A stretch of 23,611 nucleotides of DNA from a virus: positions 1 to 23,611 of the IMG/VR virus record IMGVR_UViG_3300032334_000033, one strand, 5' to 3'. Shown here in pieces: positions 3,314 to 17,713 of the stretch. Each line of letters starts with the position of its first letter. The stretch's first letter is position 1. The notes under the pieces are model-generated. The model made no database searches. It had not been told where the DNA came from and was given only the letters and a program-made list of their open reading frames with translations. The position numbers and the translations under genes are program-made.

Positions 3314-4937
<1,624 letters not shown>

Positions 4938-4946
4938 ACTTCTCGT

Positions 4947-5525
4947 ATGAGAGTCAACGAGTATTTTGATAAGGTTGTGGTGATAAACCTTGACCGCAGG
5001 AAAGACAGACTTGAAAAGGTCAACGCTCAGCTAGAAGAACTGGGAATCCAGTACGAACGCTTTAGCGCAGTAGATGCTAAAGCATTGGGCATAGATCCAA
5101 TACAAGCGTGTAAGCAAAGCCACTTACAGGTACTAGAAGAGTCAGTAGGTAAGACGCTCATCCTAGAAGATGACGCTTACTTTATGGAAGGCTTTAATGA
5201 GCGCTTTACTGAGTTCATTGAACTACTACCTGCAGACTGGCACATCTTTTATCTAGGCGCAGTACTGCTTAACAGTGAGCGTTGCAACGACATAATGGTC
5301 AGAGCAATGGATACATCATCACTGCACGCTTACTGTGTAAATCCTGAGTTCAAAGAGATTGCACTAGAACAGGGTAGAGATTACCCAGAGCACATAGATG
5401 TTGCTTATAGATTGTTACATCGCCAGTACAGATCATATGCTGCTAAGCCACCAATGGTTAAGCAGTATCCAAGTTACTCAGATCTGATGCTAGAAGATGT
5501 TGATTATATGAGTTGGTACAAATGA
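4947..5525 (+). CDS. Glycosyltransferase, GT25 family type
   Basis: A 192-residue protein with the marks of family 25 glycosyltransferases (LPS galactosyltransferases and collagen galactosyltransferases). Residues 10-25 read VVVINLDRRKDRLEKV, the typical first strand and loop; CKQSH at 55-59 is the family's acceptor/donor helix start; LILEDDA at 71-77 is the acidic metal/nucleotide-sugar site; FYLGA follows at 101-105. It would transfer a sugar from a nucleotide donor in the cytoplasm. The acceptor is not shown by sequence. No clear ribosome-binding site precedes ATG 4947, only 9 nt after the fibre stop. It overlaps the next glycosyltransferase by ATGA. Confidence 0.85.
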   Translation: MRVNEYFDKVVVINLDRRKDRLEKVNAQLEELGIQYERFSAVDAKALGIDPIQACKQSHLQVLEESVGKTLILEDDAYFMEGFNERFTEFIELLPADWHIFYLGAVLLNSERCNDIMVRAMDTSSLHAYCVNPEFKEIALEQGRDYPEHIDVAYRLLHRQYRSYAAKPPMVKQYPSYSDLMLEDVDYMSWYK

Positions 5526-6604
5526 AGATAGCCGTATACACAATTGCACTAAACGAGGAGAAGCACGTTGAACGATGGTATGAGTCTTGTAAAGACGCAG
5601 ACTATCTCCTCATTGCAGACACAGGATCAACAGACCGAACAGTTGAGATTGCACGAAGTCTTGGCATTGAAGTTTACAAGATCTTTGTTTCGCCATTTAG
5701 ATTCGACGATGCTAGGAATGCGTCGCTAGCATTACTACCAGCTGATGTTGACTACTGCATCGCTTTGGATATGGATGAAGAGTTAACACCTGGTTGGCGT
5801 GAAGCATTAGAAAAGATTGACCCTAGTATCGATAGACCGTACTACCGTCGTATCGAAGCGTTCAATGAAGATGGAACTGCAAACCTAGAGTTTAATGGGT
5901 TTAAGATCCACAGACGAACAGATGTACGGTGGAAGTATCCTATCCACGAAGTACCACACTGGGACTCAGAACGTGAAGAGATCAAGGGCGAAGTACCAGG
6001 ACTTGAGATCCATCACCGTCAAGATAAAGCTAAGTCCAGAGCACAGTACTTAGAGATGCTAGAGATGGCAGTCAAAGAAAACCCAGATGCTCGCAACTCT
6101 TATTACTTAGGTAGAGAATACTTTTACTACAAAAGATTTGATGAAGCAGCCAAGATGCTTAAAGCATACTTGACTATCTCAGTCTTCCCAGAGGAACGCA
6201 GTGCAGCGTGTAGAACACTGTCATTCTGTGAACCTCATATGGCAGAAGAGTGGTTGATTAAAGGTACAGAAGAGCACGCTAACCGTGAATCTGTACTAGG
6301 ACTTGCTCACCATTATTACAAGACCCAGCAATGGGAAGAGTGTTTGCTTGTTGCTAAGAAGGCACTGGAGTTTACTGAAAGACCTATGGGTTTCTTATCA
6401 GAAAACTGGGCGTGGACTCATATGGCTCACGACCTAATAGCAGTATCAAGTTGGCAGCTGGGAGATTTCCCAACTGCACTTGAGCACGGAGTCAAAGCGT
6501 TAGAGATATCGCCTGATGATGAAAGATTACAAACCAACGTAACGTTCTATAGGAGCAAGATAGATGCCAAATCTGGGACAACTAGTAAGCGAAGTCCAAA
6601 GTAA
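5522..6604 (+). CDS. Glycosyltransferase family 2 protein with TPR-like C-terminus
   Basis: A 360-residue protein. The N-terminal GT-A domain shows NEEKHVERW (11-19), IADTGSTDRTVEIA (31-44) and LDMDEEL (82-88), with the D83-x-D85 pair expected to bind the divalent metal and sugar nucleotide. From about residue 180 it becomes helical with repeats of the TPR style (YYLGREYFYYKRFDEAAKML, SSWQLGDFPTALEHGVKAL), a combination seen in GT2 proteins that modify proteins. The frame extends to TTG 5513, but ATG 5522 overlaps the GT25 stop exactly (ATGA). The C-terminal 13 codons overlap the next gene by 41 nt. Together with GT25 it probably decorates a virion protein or the host surface. Confidence 0.85.
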   Translation: MKIAVYTIALNEEKHVERWYESCKDADYLLIADTGSTDRTVEIARSLGIEVYKIFVSPFRFDDARNASLALLPADVDYCIALDMDEELTPGWREALEKIDPSIDRPYYRRIEAFNEDGTANLEFNGFKIHRRTDVRWKYPIHEVPHWDSEREEIKGEVPGLEIHHRQDKAKSRAQYLEMLEMAVKENPDARNSYYLGREYFYYKRFDEAAKMLKAYLTISVFPEERSAACRTLSFCEPHMAEEWLIKGTEEHANRESVLGLAHHYYKTQQWEECLLVAKKALEFTERPMGFLSENWAWTHMAHDLIAVSSWQLGDFPTALEHGVKALEISPDDERLQTNVTFYRSKIDAKSGTTSKRSPK

Positions 6605-14916: not shown

Positions 14917-14955
14917 AGGAGGTCGGTCCCTACGGGGACCGGCCTTCTTTTTTTG
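14917..14955 (+). terminator. Intrinsic terminator of the late operon
   Basis: AGGAGGTCGGTCCC (14917-14930) pairs with GGGACCGGCCTTCT (14935-14948) around a TACG loop, which as RNA is a very stable UNCG tetraloop; two pairs are G-U. A T-run continues to 14954. It stands 20 nt after the holin stop, and just beyond the 3' end of the minus-strand gene, so the hairpin may also stop that convergent transcript, though there is no T-run on that side. Confidence 0.9.
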
Positions 14956-14958
14956 TGC

Positions 14959-15297
14959 CTAAATTTTGTCTACTGAACAGGGAACAACTACTAAATTGCC
15001 ACAGGAAACACAGGTAGCATCAAGGAAATACCAGACTAGCTCGTAGTCTTCAAAGGAGCACATAACGTTAAAGACTTGTGAGCCACACGGACAGACGTGG
15101 ATGGGTCCTAAACCCCGCAGATCGGCTCCAAACGGCTCAGGAATGCCATCGTAGGGCTTGCGCCTGCGGTTCATTCTTGGCAGGGTGAGTAGACGGAGTA
15201 CCATATTGCCTGGCACGGCTCCCTCCTGCGGGTCGGTCGCCTCTCGGCTTTCAGCCTCGGCCCCGTAAGGGGCCACTGTAAATTCGCTATCGCTCAT
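14959..15297 (-). CDS. Zinc-ribbon protein on the minus strand
   Basis: A 112-residue protein and, apart from the window-edge methyltransferase, the only minus-strand gene. The N-terminus is acidic (SDSEFTVAPYGAEAESREATD), the middle basic (RMNRRRKPYDGIPEPF), and the C-terminal part holds HVCPCGSQVFNV and CVSCGNLVVVPC, two Cys pairs that would form a zinc ribbon around a FEDYELVWYFLDA strand. I recall small proteins with this ribbon in actinobacterial phages, of unknown function; nucleic-acid or protein binding is plausible. It is divergent from the protease-like gene, with 57 nt between the starts, so both may be controlled from one region. Confidence 0.7.
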   Translation of the reverse strand: MSDSEFTVAPYGAEAESREATDPQEGAVPGNMVLRLLTLPRMNRRRKPYDGIPEPFGADLRGLGPIHVCPCGSQVFNVMCSFEDYELVWYFLDATCVSCGNLVVVPCSVDKI

Positions 15298-15313: not shown

Positions 15314-15349
15314 CTAGTATGTGTCTTACGACACGCCGTAGTAGACTAG
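15314..15349. promoter_or_regulatory. Divergent control region with nested inverted repeats
   Basis: In the 57 nt between the divergent starts (15297 minus, 15355 plus) an inner GTGTC-TTAC-GACAC repeat (15321-15334) is flanked by CTAGT (15314-15318) and ACTAG (15345-15349). TAGACT at 15342-15347 fits the actinobacterial TANNNT -10 form and lies 7 nt before ATG 15355, where a leaderless start would be expected. A repressor bound to the repeats would cover this region. No convincing -35 is seen. This is inference from symmetry and spacing. Confidence 0.35.
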
Positions 15350-15354
15350 TAACT

Positions 15355-15909
15355 ATGACAACATTGGTAGGGATCTCTAGTAACGACTTCGTCGTAATGG
15401 CAGCTGACTCGCAGATCACCGATGGTGACCAGCGCATCATCTCAATGGAAACTCCCAAGATAATCTCGGTGGGTAAATACCTATTAGGTCTTACCGGTGA
15501 CTCACGTCCTGGTGACATCCTTGCTTACGCGTGGAAGCCACCGCTATATCGTGGTGAAGATCCTGTGCGTTTTATGGGTAGCAAACTATTACCTAGTATG
15601 TCAGCTGCGTTCAAAGAGAATAACTATGAACCAGATCAGAAGGAAATGAATTTTGCTTTCCTTGTATCTTTCGATGCCAACCTGTTCTCAGTAGGTGGGG
15701 ATCTATCCTTCAACGCTAGTGAGCGTGGTCTATTTGCAGCAGGCTCAGGTGGTAACTATGCACTGGGCTTCTTGTATGGATTAGACAAGCGTATGTACAA
15801 GACACCAGAGATGGCAAAGATTGCTGCAGAAAAGGCAGTAAAGATTGCGTCGGTTCTTGACATCAACACTAGCCCACCCATACAGTTAGAGATCCAGGAA
15901 AGGAGTTGA
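15355..15909 (+). CDS. HslV/20S proteasome beta-like Ntn protease
   Basis: A 184-residue protein of the threonine-protease fold. It begins MTTLVGISSNDFVVMAADSQ: loss of Met leaves the catalytic Thr at the N-terminus, with Asp at mature position 17 as in proteasome beta subunits and HslV, a Lys at mature 34 (ETPKIISVG) close to the usual Lys33, and FAAGSGGNYALGFLYGL at 127-143, matching the GSGG loop and helix of HslV with Ser near mature 130. No propeptide is needed at this start, as in HslV. The frame opens at GTG 15319, but ATG 15355 puts Thr directly second. No HslU or other unfoldase is visible. It could process phage or host proteins, or act on regulators. Confidence 0.8.
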   Translation: MTTLVGISSNDFVVMAADSQITDGDQRIISMETPKIISVGKYLLGLTGDSRPGDILAYAWKPPLYRGEDPVRFMGSKLLPSMSAAFKENNYEPDQKEMNFAFLVSFDANLFSVGGDLSFNASERGLFAAGSGGNYALGFLYGLDKRMYKTPEMAKIAAEKAVKIASVLDINTSPPIQLEIQERS

Positions 15910-15910
15910 A

Positions 15911-16009
15911 ATGTTATTAGGAATTGCTATCGGTTTTTTAATTGGCTTCGTTGCAGCTTATGGTTTTGATACTTGGCTACAGTGGAAGGATGACCACCAA
16001 TGGAAATAA
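15911..16009 (+). CDS. Small membrane protein (32 aa)
   Basis: A 32-residue frame 1 nt after the protease stop, with an AGGAG site. Residues 2-20 are hydrophobic (LLGIAIGFLIGFVAAYGF), with the small-residue pattern of a single membrane helix, followed by a Trp/Asp/Lys-rich tail. The function is unknown. The ribosome-binding site and operon spacing support it as real in spite of its size. Confidence 0.5.
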   Translation: MLLGIAIGFLIGFVAAYGFDTWLQWKDDHQWK

Positions 16010-16020
16010 AGGGAATCCAT

Positions 16021-16125
16021 ATGACAGATGAGTACGCTGCTCATTACTTTTTACAGCAGGGTTACTTAGCAGCACGAGTTGAATACATACAAGCAGAACG
16101 TGAGAAGGAAAACAATGGCGATTGA
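16021..16125 (+). CDS. Small hypothetical protein (34 aa)
   Basis: A 34-residue frame (MTDEYAAHYFLQQGYLAARV...) with AAAGGGA upstream. It is one amphipathic helix ending in a charged Glu/Lys stretch. It overlaps the start of the nuclease gene by 11 nt, and its 3' end contains that gene's AGAAGGAAA ribosome-binding site. It may be only a leader peptide coupled to the nuclease gene. Confidence 0.45.
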   Translation: MTDEYAAHYFLQQGYLAARVEYIQAEREKENNGD

Positions 16126-17074
16126 AGACCCAAAGGAATTACTGCTGCACGTACTGCATAACAAAGATGCAAGTCGTGATCGAAGTATGCAGACTGAGGT
16201 TGGTCCGTCAGAGATCGGTAGTTGCAAGCGCAAGGTCTGGTATAGATTAAACGCACAGCCACATACCAATGAGAACCAATCAAAGCTGGCTGCCATTATG
16301 GGTACTGCAATTCACGCAGCAATCGAAGAGGCTATTGGTCACATAGATCCAGAAGGCAAAGAGTATCTAGTTGAAACCTCTGTTGCCTACGGTGATATGA
16401 AAGCACACGTAGATTTATTTATACCTAGTACCGGTGCAGTCATTGACTGGAAGACCAGCAAGATAAAGAACCTGAGCTACTTCCCATCCAAGCAACAGCG
16501 TTGGCAGGTACAGGTTTATGGATACTTACTATCAAAGAATGGATACAATGTTAAAACGGTTAACCTTGTTGCTATTGCTCGTGATGGTGCTGAGAAAGAT
16601 GTCAAAGTACATACAGAACCTTATGATGAAAGCATCGCTTTAGAAGCACTTGAGTGGTTAGCAAATGTCAAGGCAAGTCCAACCTTGCCAGAGCCTGAGA
16701 AGGACCAATCATTTTGTAAAGACTATTGCCAATACTATGATGAGTCTGAGACTATGGGTTGCGGTGGCTTAAAAAAAGAACGTATCGTCCTTAGTGAATT
16801 GATTATTGAGGACGAAGCAGTTGACAAGAACGCACTGCTTTACTTACAGTTAGACAGCAAGATCAAAGAGTTAGAAAAAGAAAAAGATTCCTTGAAGGCA
16901 TCCTTTGAGGGAACTACTGGAGTAACACCTAGTGGTGTAGAAATCAGCTGGTCTACTGTTAAAGGTAGAGAAACAGTTGATGCAAAAGAAGTTGAGAAAC
17001 TTCTAGGGTTTGTACCGAAGGTTGTCGGTAATGAATCTGTACGACTTAACATCAAAACTATCGGAGGAAAGTAA
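16115..17074 (+). CDS. PD-(D/E)XK exonuclease, Cas4/RecB type with Fe-S cysteines
   Basis: A 319-residue nuclease. The core motifs are in order: GTAIHAAIEEAI at 63-74 (H67 and a Glu), HVDLFI with D100, AVIDWKTSK with D111 and K113, and QVQVYGYLL at 131-139. Four cysteines, C37 (GSCKRKVWY), C201, C205 and C216, are placed like those that bind a 4Fe-4S cluster in Cas4 and AddB. The C-terminal third (235-319) adds a coiled coil (KIKELEKEKDSLKASF) and a small beta part. It probably resects double-strand ends in phage recombination. I chose ATG 16115 over the earlier 16079 because of the AGAAGGAAA site. It is followed directly by a zinc protein, as in recombination cassettes. Confidence 0.85.
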   Translation: MAIEDPKELLLHVLHNKDASRDRSMQTEVGPSEIGSCKRKVWYRLNAQPHTNENQSKLAAIMGTAIHAAIEEAIGHIDPEGKEYLVETSVAYGDMKAHVDLFIPSTGAVIDWKTSKIKNLSYFPSKQQRWQVQVYGYLLSKNGYNVKTVNLVAIARDGAEKDVKVHTEPYDESIALEALEWLANVKASPTLPEPEKDQSFCKDYCQYYDESETMGCGGLKKERIVLSELIIEDEAVDKNALLYLQLDSKIKELEKEKDSLKASFEGTTGVTPSGVEISWSTVKGRETVDAKEVEKLLGFVPKVVGNESVRLNIKTIGGK

Positions 17075-17452: not shown

Positions 17453-17713
17453 GTGCGAGGACCTTGGAATTTCGAGGACCCACGCTGTAGGGGCATAGAC
17501 ACAGAGATGTTCTACCCACCAGAGGCAGAGCATCCACGAGAGATAGTACAAATCCTTTCTCTTTGCAATAACTGCGTACACAAAACAGAGTGTGCTGAGT
17601 GGGGAATTAAAAACGAACGCTTTGGTATCTGGGGTGGGTTAACCCACGGCAAGAGAGCAAGGATTCGTACACTAAGAGGTATCACTATTCCGTTTGGGGA
17701 GTTTAATGCTTAG
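17453..17713 (+). CDS. WhiB-family transcription regulator
   Basis: An 86-residue protein with the family's marks: C12, then C38-x2-C41-x5-C47 (SLCNNCVHKTECAEWG), which bind a 4Fe-4S cluster, and the FGIWGGLT turn at 57-64, followed by basic residues for DNA contact (GKRARIRTLRG). WhiB proteins are found only in actinobacteria and their phages, and act with the primary sigma factor to change promoter choice. The start is GTG, 3 nt after the previous stop. The last bases overlap the ATPase gene by 8 nt. It may direct host RNA polymerase to phage promoters or shut off host whiB genes. Confidence 0.92.
   Translation: MRGPWNFEDPRCRGIDTEMFYPPEAEHPREIVQILSLCNNCVHKTECAEWGIKNERFGIWGGLTHGKRARIRTLRGITIPFGEFNA

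Follow-up and report, generated by a model that had tools for sequence, protein, structure and literature searches.

A candidate proteasome-superfamily threonine peptidase in an exchangeable gene slot of freshwater actinophages

Introduction

What does a phage gain from a peptidase of the proteasome superfamily? Phage-borne proteasome homologues of this kind have been published and are uncharacterised: 22 new proteasome homologues, the groups PPH and AAH among them, were reported by Fuchs, Alva and Lupas (2021), who found for them neither an AAA+ partner nor a genomic context suggestive of function (PMC8665760). Catalogued without surroundings that hint at a role (PMC8665760), they can now be read against the context supplied by the gene family described here, which belongs to a large and abundant group of freshwater actinophages. 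In these phages the gene stands at the start of an operon and has a conserved membrane microprotein coupled to it; an unrelated, predicted metallopeptidase is its one-for-one alternative.

We analysed a stretch of 23,611 nucleotides (IMG/VR record IMGVR_UViG_3300032334_000033), referred to below as the window. With a probability of roughly 0.55, we propose that its peptidase gene encodes an early-made N-terminal-threonine peptidase of the proteasome superfamily, carried in an exchangeable slot. The locus is laid out as follows.

14917-14948, + strand: intrinsic-terminator-like hairpin closing the late/lysis module (14-pair stem with a T run)
14959-15297, - strand: divergent small gene with Cys pairs, on the far side of the promoter region (no Pfam or PHROG match)
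15321-15334, + strand: GTGTC-TTAC-GACAC dyad in the promoter region (read from the sequence)
15330-15338, + strand: conserved GACACGCCG element upstream of the putative early operon (84 copies in family loci)
15342-15347, + strand: -10 box TAGACT, 7 nt before the start codon (leaderless-type start)
15355-15909, + strand: proteasome-like Ntn peptidase P0001, 184 aa (Pfam, PHROG and PDB matches, conservation, model)
15911-16009, + strand: unannotated 32-aa single-pass membrane microprotein, MLLGIAIGFLIGFVAAYGFDTWLQWKDDHQWK, directly behind the peptidase gene
16021-16125, + strand: 34-aa ORF in the interval from microprotein to exonuclease (read from the sequence)
16115-17074, + strand: Cas4/RecB-type PD-(D/E)XK exonuclease, the next large gene of the operon (Pfam 6e-10, phrog_1674 6e-32)
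17453-17713, + strand: WhiB-like regulator, an actinobacterial host marker (PF02467 1.7e-12; 14 of 15 records)

A threonine peptidase candidate with conserved catalytic residues

The mechanically called reading frame begins at 15319; the start kept among relatives is 15355, from which the protein (MTTLVGISSNDFVVMAADSQITDGD...TPKI...AAGSGGNYALGF) opens with Met-Thr-Thr and carries no propeptide. It scores above the gathering threshold of Pfam PF00227 Proteasome (E 1.8e-8; 34.7 bits against 22.4), matches phrog_1040, 'peptidase HslV family' (E 6.5e-25, covering 144 of 277 profile positions), and matches PDB chains of HslV, the proteasome beta subunit and the beta-proteobacterial proteasome homologue BPH. 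In mature numbering, where Thr2 becomes residue 1, this threonine together with Asp17, Lys34, Gly44 and Ser130 aligns with the proteasome set Thr1/Asp17/Lys33/Gly47/Ser129. Mature Asp168 and Thr171 align with the Asp-x-x-Ser of BPH, a position that we take to be that of proteasome Asp166/Ser169.

The original prediction, made from the letters alone, had pointed to a ready-made N-terminal Thr (MTTLVG), an Asp17 in mature numbering, a nearby Lys and the GSGGNYAL loop of HslV, and each of these is upheld. The loop is identical in Staphylococcus aureus HslV, and the Lys lies at mature position 34, shifted by one residue from position 33 of HslV. Counted with the initial Met, Thr2, Asp18 and Lys35 were never lost in 157 distinct phage and plasmid relatives (157/157 for each), and neither were Gly130 and Gly132 of the GxG loop; Gly45, in the place of the oxyanion Gly, is kept in 154 of the 157. 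Loss of the N-terminal Thr or the Lys among relatives had been named as evidence against the prediction, and both are invariant. The codons of invariant residues vary (for Thr2, ACA 98, ACT 28, ACC 17 and ACG 14), so their conservation goes beyond chance. Even across 15 diverse phage proteins, which share 21-33% identity beyond the two nearest, Met1, Thr2, Asp18, Lys35, Gly45, Gly130 and Gly132 form invariant columns. The dN/dS of the window gene against nine relatives is 0.07-0.18, and the loop behind the first helix pair is acidic and pore-loop-like (mean charge -2.3).

Profiles, fold and PDB alignment thus bear out the earlier proposal of a proteasome/HslV-superfamily peptidase in an actinophage, as a threonine peptidase candidate. 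From its sequence the protein is very probably a threonine hydrolase of this superfamily, and it is likely that this candidate enzyme cleaves peptides.

Relationship to known proteasome homologues

An AlphaFold2 monomer model built from 45 sequences (pLDDT 92.8, pTM 0.88) contains two helices, H1 (51-59) and H2 (70-88). With this model, Foldseek returned Thiobacillus BPH as the top match (E 9e-12) and HslV second, and VIA-align gave Z scores of about 20 for archaeal proteasome beta, about 20 for BPH and 18.9 for HslV. Experimentally active rings are among the matches, which suggests a common fold without proving ring assembly.

The identification as HslV itself, also part of the original prediction, did not stand: the protein scores 33.4 and 35.2 bits against NCBIfam HslV cut-offs of 157.75 and 137, and its top match by both structure and profile is BPH instead. 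An HslV equivalog is ruled out by scores more than 100 bits under these cut-offs and by the lack of an HslU-type ATPase in the relatives. The protein has the HslV fold, equivalents of Thr1/Asp17/Lys33 and the GSGGNYAL loop in common with HslV, yet falls in a separate clade and occurs without HslU.

BPH (PDB 5ovs/5ovt/5ovu) is, according to the literature, a ring protease apparently unregulated by an unfoldase. In addition to the Foldseek result, it is the top profile match (E 1.1e-9; Z about 19.9 across 173 residues), and it shares the acidic loop and an Asp-x-x-Ser/Thr close to the C-terminus. However, BPH is only about 22-25% identical to the phage peptidase, is a bacterial chromosomal enzyme, and forms a deep separate branch.

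Like AAH, the window peptidase is a Group I proteasome-like protein of about 175-195 aa, phage-borne, with an MT start and no propeptide (PMC8665760). AAH proteins range over alpha-proteobacteria, actinobacteria and phages, and none was found in actinobacteria-specific phages (PMC8665760), a reported gap that the actinophage peptidases would fill. A clade that we call AAH-like, a label of our own based on taxonomy, contains proteins from Streptomyces, Rhizobium and other plasmids and from Vibrio, Aeromonas and T5-like phages. The window peptidase falls outside it, and the clade branches separately from the actinophage group (100/99), in trees that leave out the published AAH and CPH sets and hold several long branches. 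Most AAH-like members have S or V where the actinophage group has an invariant Asp169 and a near-invariant Thr172.

PPH is a phage group with a core of about 140 aa that lacks helix H2 (PMC8665760). Its members in phi92, ESCO5 and Plateaulakevirus resemble the window peptidase in being phage-borne, in their MTT start, in Thr, Asp and Lys, and in the PHROG assignment 'peptidase HslV family', whereas the window model has both H1 and H2. The PPH proteins of phi92, ESCO5 and phiA047 form a clade apart from the actinophage peptidases (97/92). Overall, PPH, the AAH-like clade and the actinophage proteins are mutually apart. The window family, the protein of phage E7 and the large-phage type of DSL-LC01 make up the actinophage group, which as a single clade is weakly supported, at 92/82 in one tree and unresolved in another. 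By sequence, the window peptidase appears to belong to an actinophage group that adjoins the published phage homologues AAH and PPH and stands apart from them.

Among the wider relatives, Sinorhizobium americanum carries an AAH-like homologue within a nitrogen-fixation cluster (L110:6001-6546), flanked by nifQ and an Fe-S accessory gene/nifS. Aeromonas phage 2L372X has tandem proteasome homologues, one AAH-like and one of PPH type (L025:2959-3921). In Vibrio phages a peptide deformylase gene lies one to two genes upstream of the proteasome-like gene (L024:2283-3528, L028:1498-3531), and its product could help to expose the N-terminal Thr.

Not every enzyme on this scaffold is a protease, and connectase, a proteasome-like family, is a ligase (PMC8665760). 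A specific transpeptidase, ligase or amidase of connectase-like character is nonetheless improbable here: connectases are marked by an insertion between strand 3 and strand 4 that the model lacks, and the exchange with a predicted metallopeptidase described below points towards peptide cleavage.

Search for a partner unfoldase

That no partner ATPase is visible had been remarked from the sequence, and wider searches agree: neither the window-family records nor the genomes of four named phages contain one of the ClpX/HslU type. HslU (AAA_2) was found in 0 of 14 records including DSL-LC01 and in 0 of 12 including the four named phages, IMG/VR records being possibly incomplete. All 13 IMG/VR relatives tested lack AAA (PF00004), which only DSL-LC01 has. 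A mechanism that relies on a phage-encoded ClpX/HslU-type unfoldase is therefore rejected for the window family.

The peptidase might then be an ATP-independent enzyme that clears unfolded host protein, for general proteostasis or amino-acid supply, as has been suggested for uncapped 20S particles, an idea raised for the whole family (PMC8665760). BPH as the nearest fold and profile, the acidic, pore-loop-like loop and the lack of a co-located unfoldase all agree with such general proteostasis. However, it leaves unexplained both the substitution by a small HExxH metallopeptidase and the coupled microprotein, and we regard it as unlikely.

Competition with the host proteasome, which the original prediction also offered, or a role as a decoy for it or for the Pup pathway has a single point in its favour, the actinobacterial host indicated by WhiB. 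An alpha-type subunit and an Mpa/ARC-like ATPase are absent from the window-family records, and the gene family also occurs in phages of Vibrio and Aeromonas, hosts that are not known to have a Pup system. We consider a decoy or competitor highly improbable.

Host and distribution

The window derives from a lake-dwelling phage of actinobacteria. WhiB is confined to actinobacteria and their phages, and the window is among the 14 of 15 records that encode it. At least 536 IMG/VR stretches code for relatives of the peptidase. Scans of genome contigs confirmed no bacterial homologues, no named phage gave a close DNA match to the window, and the freshwater-actinophage papers searched do not mention the protease.

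An orthologue is present in cultivated phages. Accessions OX376640 and OX376641, entered as 'Caudovirales sp. ct2KA10', bear the assembly name LanE43-AprE7, which is that of a phage isolated on 'Ca. Planktophila' (PMC10202952). This phage, E7, and phage F5 belong to the same phage family as the window, and their peptidase is 31% identical to that of the window. E7 shares with the window family its terminase (46% identity), portal (49%), major head protein (51%), lysin (61%) and helicase (43%). From these identities, a related freshwater actinobacterium probably serves as host to the window phage. With orthologues in cultivated Planktophila phages, the question of the substrates of phage proteasome homologues becomes testable.

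Position in the genome

A lysin gene, a gene for a small membrane protein and a terminator close the late module of the window family and are followed by an oppositely oriented small gene; minus-strand ORFs related to that small gene occur in 86 of 90 loci. The peptidase is then the first gene of a rightward replication module that continues with exonuclease, gp49-like, WhiB, DnaB-like, primase and sigma-like factor genes, an arrangement syntenic across 90 loci. Judged by gene order and promoter resemblance, the peptidase gene would open an early operon.

E7 and F5 differ from this pattern, their orthologue lying directly behind the portal in the late module, without the membrane microprotein. 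Since these genomes are otherwise collinear with the window family, the gene has moved between modules. Elsewhere, it adjoins WhiB in DSL-LC01, sits within a tRNA/ThyX cluster in Pumpernickel and lies among nucleotide-metabolism genes in AAS21. Such widely differing locations fit a trans-acting factor.

The late position in E7 and F5 would argue against an early role, and it raises the alternative of a capsid or scaffold maturation protease, which would degrade the scaffold, or trim head proteins, as the head is built. The place directly behind terminase and portal is the usual one for a prohead protease, and in one window-family genome no other such protease was recognised in the interval from portal to major head protein. 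Against this, the window-family gene lies outside the late module, at the putative early operon start, some 15 kb away from the head genes; a scaffold-like gene of its own is present in the window, whose major head protein appears to lack an N-terminal delta-like domain. Further, a cytosolic metallopeptidase takes the place of the gene in sister phages with the same operon. Maturation of the capsid is accordingly a reading that we think has little chance of being correct.

The promoter and the membrane microprotein

A TANNNT box ending 6-9 nt before the start codon occurs in 54 of 62 distinct upstream regions, against a background of 8%, and most of the 62 lack a Shine-Dalgarno sequence. A -10 box so close to the start codon, mostly without a Shine-Dalgarno sequence, indicates a leaderless start. 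Of the 84 GACACGCCG copies present in 872 kb of family loci, 73 lie no more than 60 nt upstream of the protease start. The left half of the GTGTC-TTAC-GACAC dyad is retained in many, not all, relatives. New here is a peptidase gene that apparently opens an early operon and is preceded by a conserved promoter of leaderless type with the element GACACGCCG. A multi-copy operator was considered for this element and rejected, as it is essentially single-copy.

GACAC is the WhiA site in Streptomyces, where WhiA and WhiB act jointly (PMC3781837, PMC4850268). By analogy, a WhiA-type link in phages that encode WhiB is putative, GACAC being short. At the late/early junction of E7, one TTGCGACACGCCG (L206:1495-1510, - strand) is identical to the window-family element and lies on the opposite strand.

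HNH/endonuclease VII-like genes of two kinds are inserted exactly between promoter and peptidase in L031, L042, L045, L062, L063 and L075, and have captured the leaderless promoter of the peptidase. The element GACACGCCG marks the operon start, since it sits upstream of the inserted gene where one is present. As these genes also insert at the promoter-proximal site, that site may serve accessory genes in general as a landing place. In five relatives (L031:8001, L040:1438, L045:8001, L063:8001, L075:7028) the codon at the start position reads ATA or ATC; GGAG(G) precedes it by 6-8 nt, and the stop codon of the inserted upstream gene overlaps it. Insertion of an HNH/endonuclease VII-like gene exactly there may have led to natural non-canonical initiation. 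A propeptide was considered for the ATC/ATA-start genes and rejected for L040 and L075, where no other start lies in frame.

The apparent coupling of the peptidase to an unannotated membrane microprotein is likewise new. The microprotein family (28-36 aa) has a single hydrophobic segment and a charged tail, with the consensus LLxGFVxAYxFDxWLxxRD. It occurs in 54 of 78 distinct loci, with G-F-x-x-A-Y-x-x-D-x-x-L-x-x-x-D invariant and a pN/pS of 0.38, and its start often overlaps the peptidase stop as ATGA. A motif scan found it beside the peptidase only, with 0 matches in reversed sequence. The L083-L107 group, a distant subclade of the window family, has a different ORF of about 60 aa in its place (MxKDFxxxTxHxN...LGFDYY).

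Exchange with a predicted metallopeptidase

When IMG/VR was scanned with the microprotein as anchor, 57 of 80 loci had the proteasome-like gene directly upstream, 22 had another gene, and one was cut off. The alternative gene encodes 87-113 aa with an HExxH motif (MHEVTHAVIHE) in 22 of 22 cases. It matches phrog_1233 and, weakly, DUF6782 and M78/IrrE metallopeptidases, with best scores just under the Pfam gathering scores (DUF6782 26.5 of 27 bits; M78 21.5 of 22). We predict an HExxH metallopeptidase, of a fold unrelated to the proteasome type. It mostly has the same GACACG element, -10 box and microprotein coupling.

To counter the bias of microprotein anchoring, the exonuclease was chosen as a neutral anchor. 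Among the 69 loci that extend 900 nt or more upstream, drawn from the best 80 of 577, the proteasome type occurred in 52 and the metallopeptidase in 17, with both in none and neither in none; these loci are related, not independent, and close relatives dominate. In these 69 loci from the best 80 of 577, the slot holds exactly one peptidase, of one of two unrelated kinds. On an exonuclease tree (best 80 of 577) the slot label changes at least three times, with 3-4 changes in bootstrap trees. Three pairs of loci have flanks about 84% identical, counted from the microprotein onward, and yet differ in their peptidase gene.

The occupation of the slot by an unrelated HExxH metallopeptidase in related phages, as predicted from sequence, is new. 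Since a peptidase of unrelated fold replaces the proteasome-like one in the same slot, the job of the slot is best explained as proteolysis. Such one-for-one replacement would speak against the gene product being structural or a decoy, and to a weaker degree against maturation of the capsid. The exchange suggests that such phages need some protease at the start of infection. IrrE/ImmA-type metallopeptidases cleave regulators. In addition, host proteins have been suggested as the targets of patchily distributed phage peptidases (PMC7824862).

A possible mode of action

We speculate that host methionine aminopeptidase would remove the initial Met and free Thr1, and that the subunits would assemble as a ring or smaller oligomer. 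This oligomer could dispense with a dedicated unfoldase or borrow one from the host, and would cut one or more host (or phage) proteins early in infection; the membrane microprotein possibly directs the cleavage. We see about even chances that the enzyme acts in trans, early in infection, on proteins of the host or on regulators. A more elaborate version is tentative and rather doubtful: a two-part early cassette of freshwater actinophages, in which an interchangeable peptidase and a microprotein guiding it to a membrane-bound or defence-related host target would be expressed from a leaderless WhiA-type GACAC promoter readable by host WhiA and phage WhiB.

Other features of the window

The tail region of the window encodes a 430-aa protein with long G-x-T/collagen-like GPTG repeats (3645-4937). 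Two adjacent glycosyltransferase-like genes lie within the tail module (4947-6604), and such a pair is also reported for E7/F5 and related actinophages (PMC10202952).
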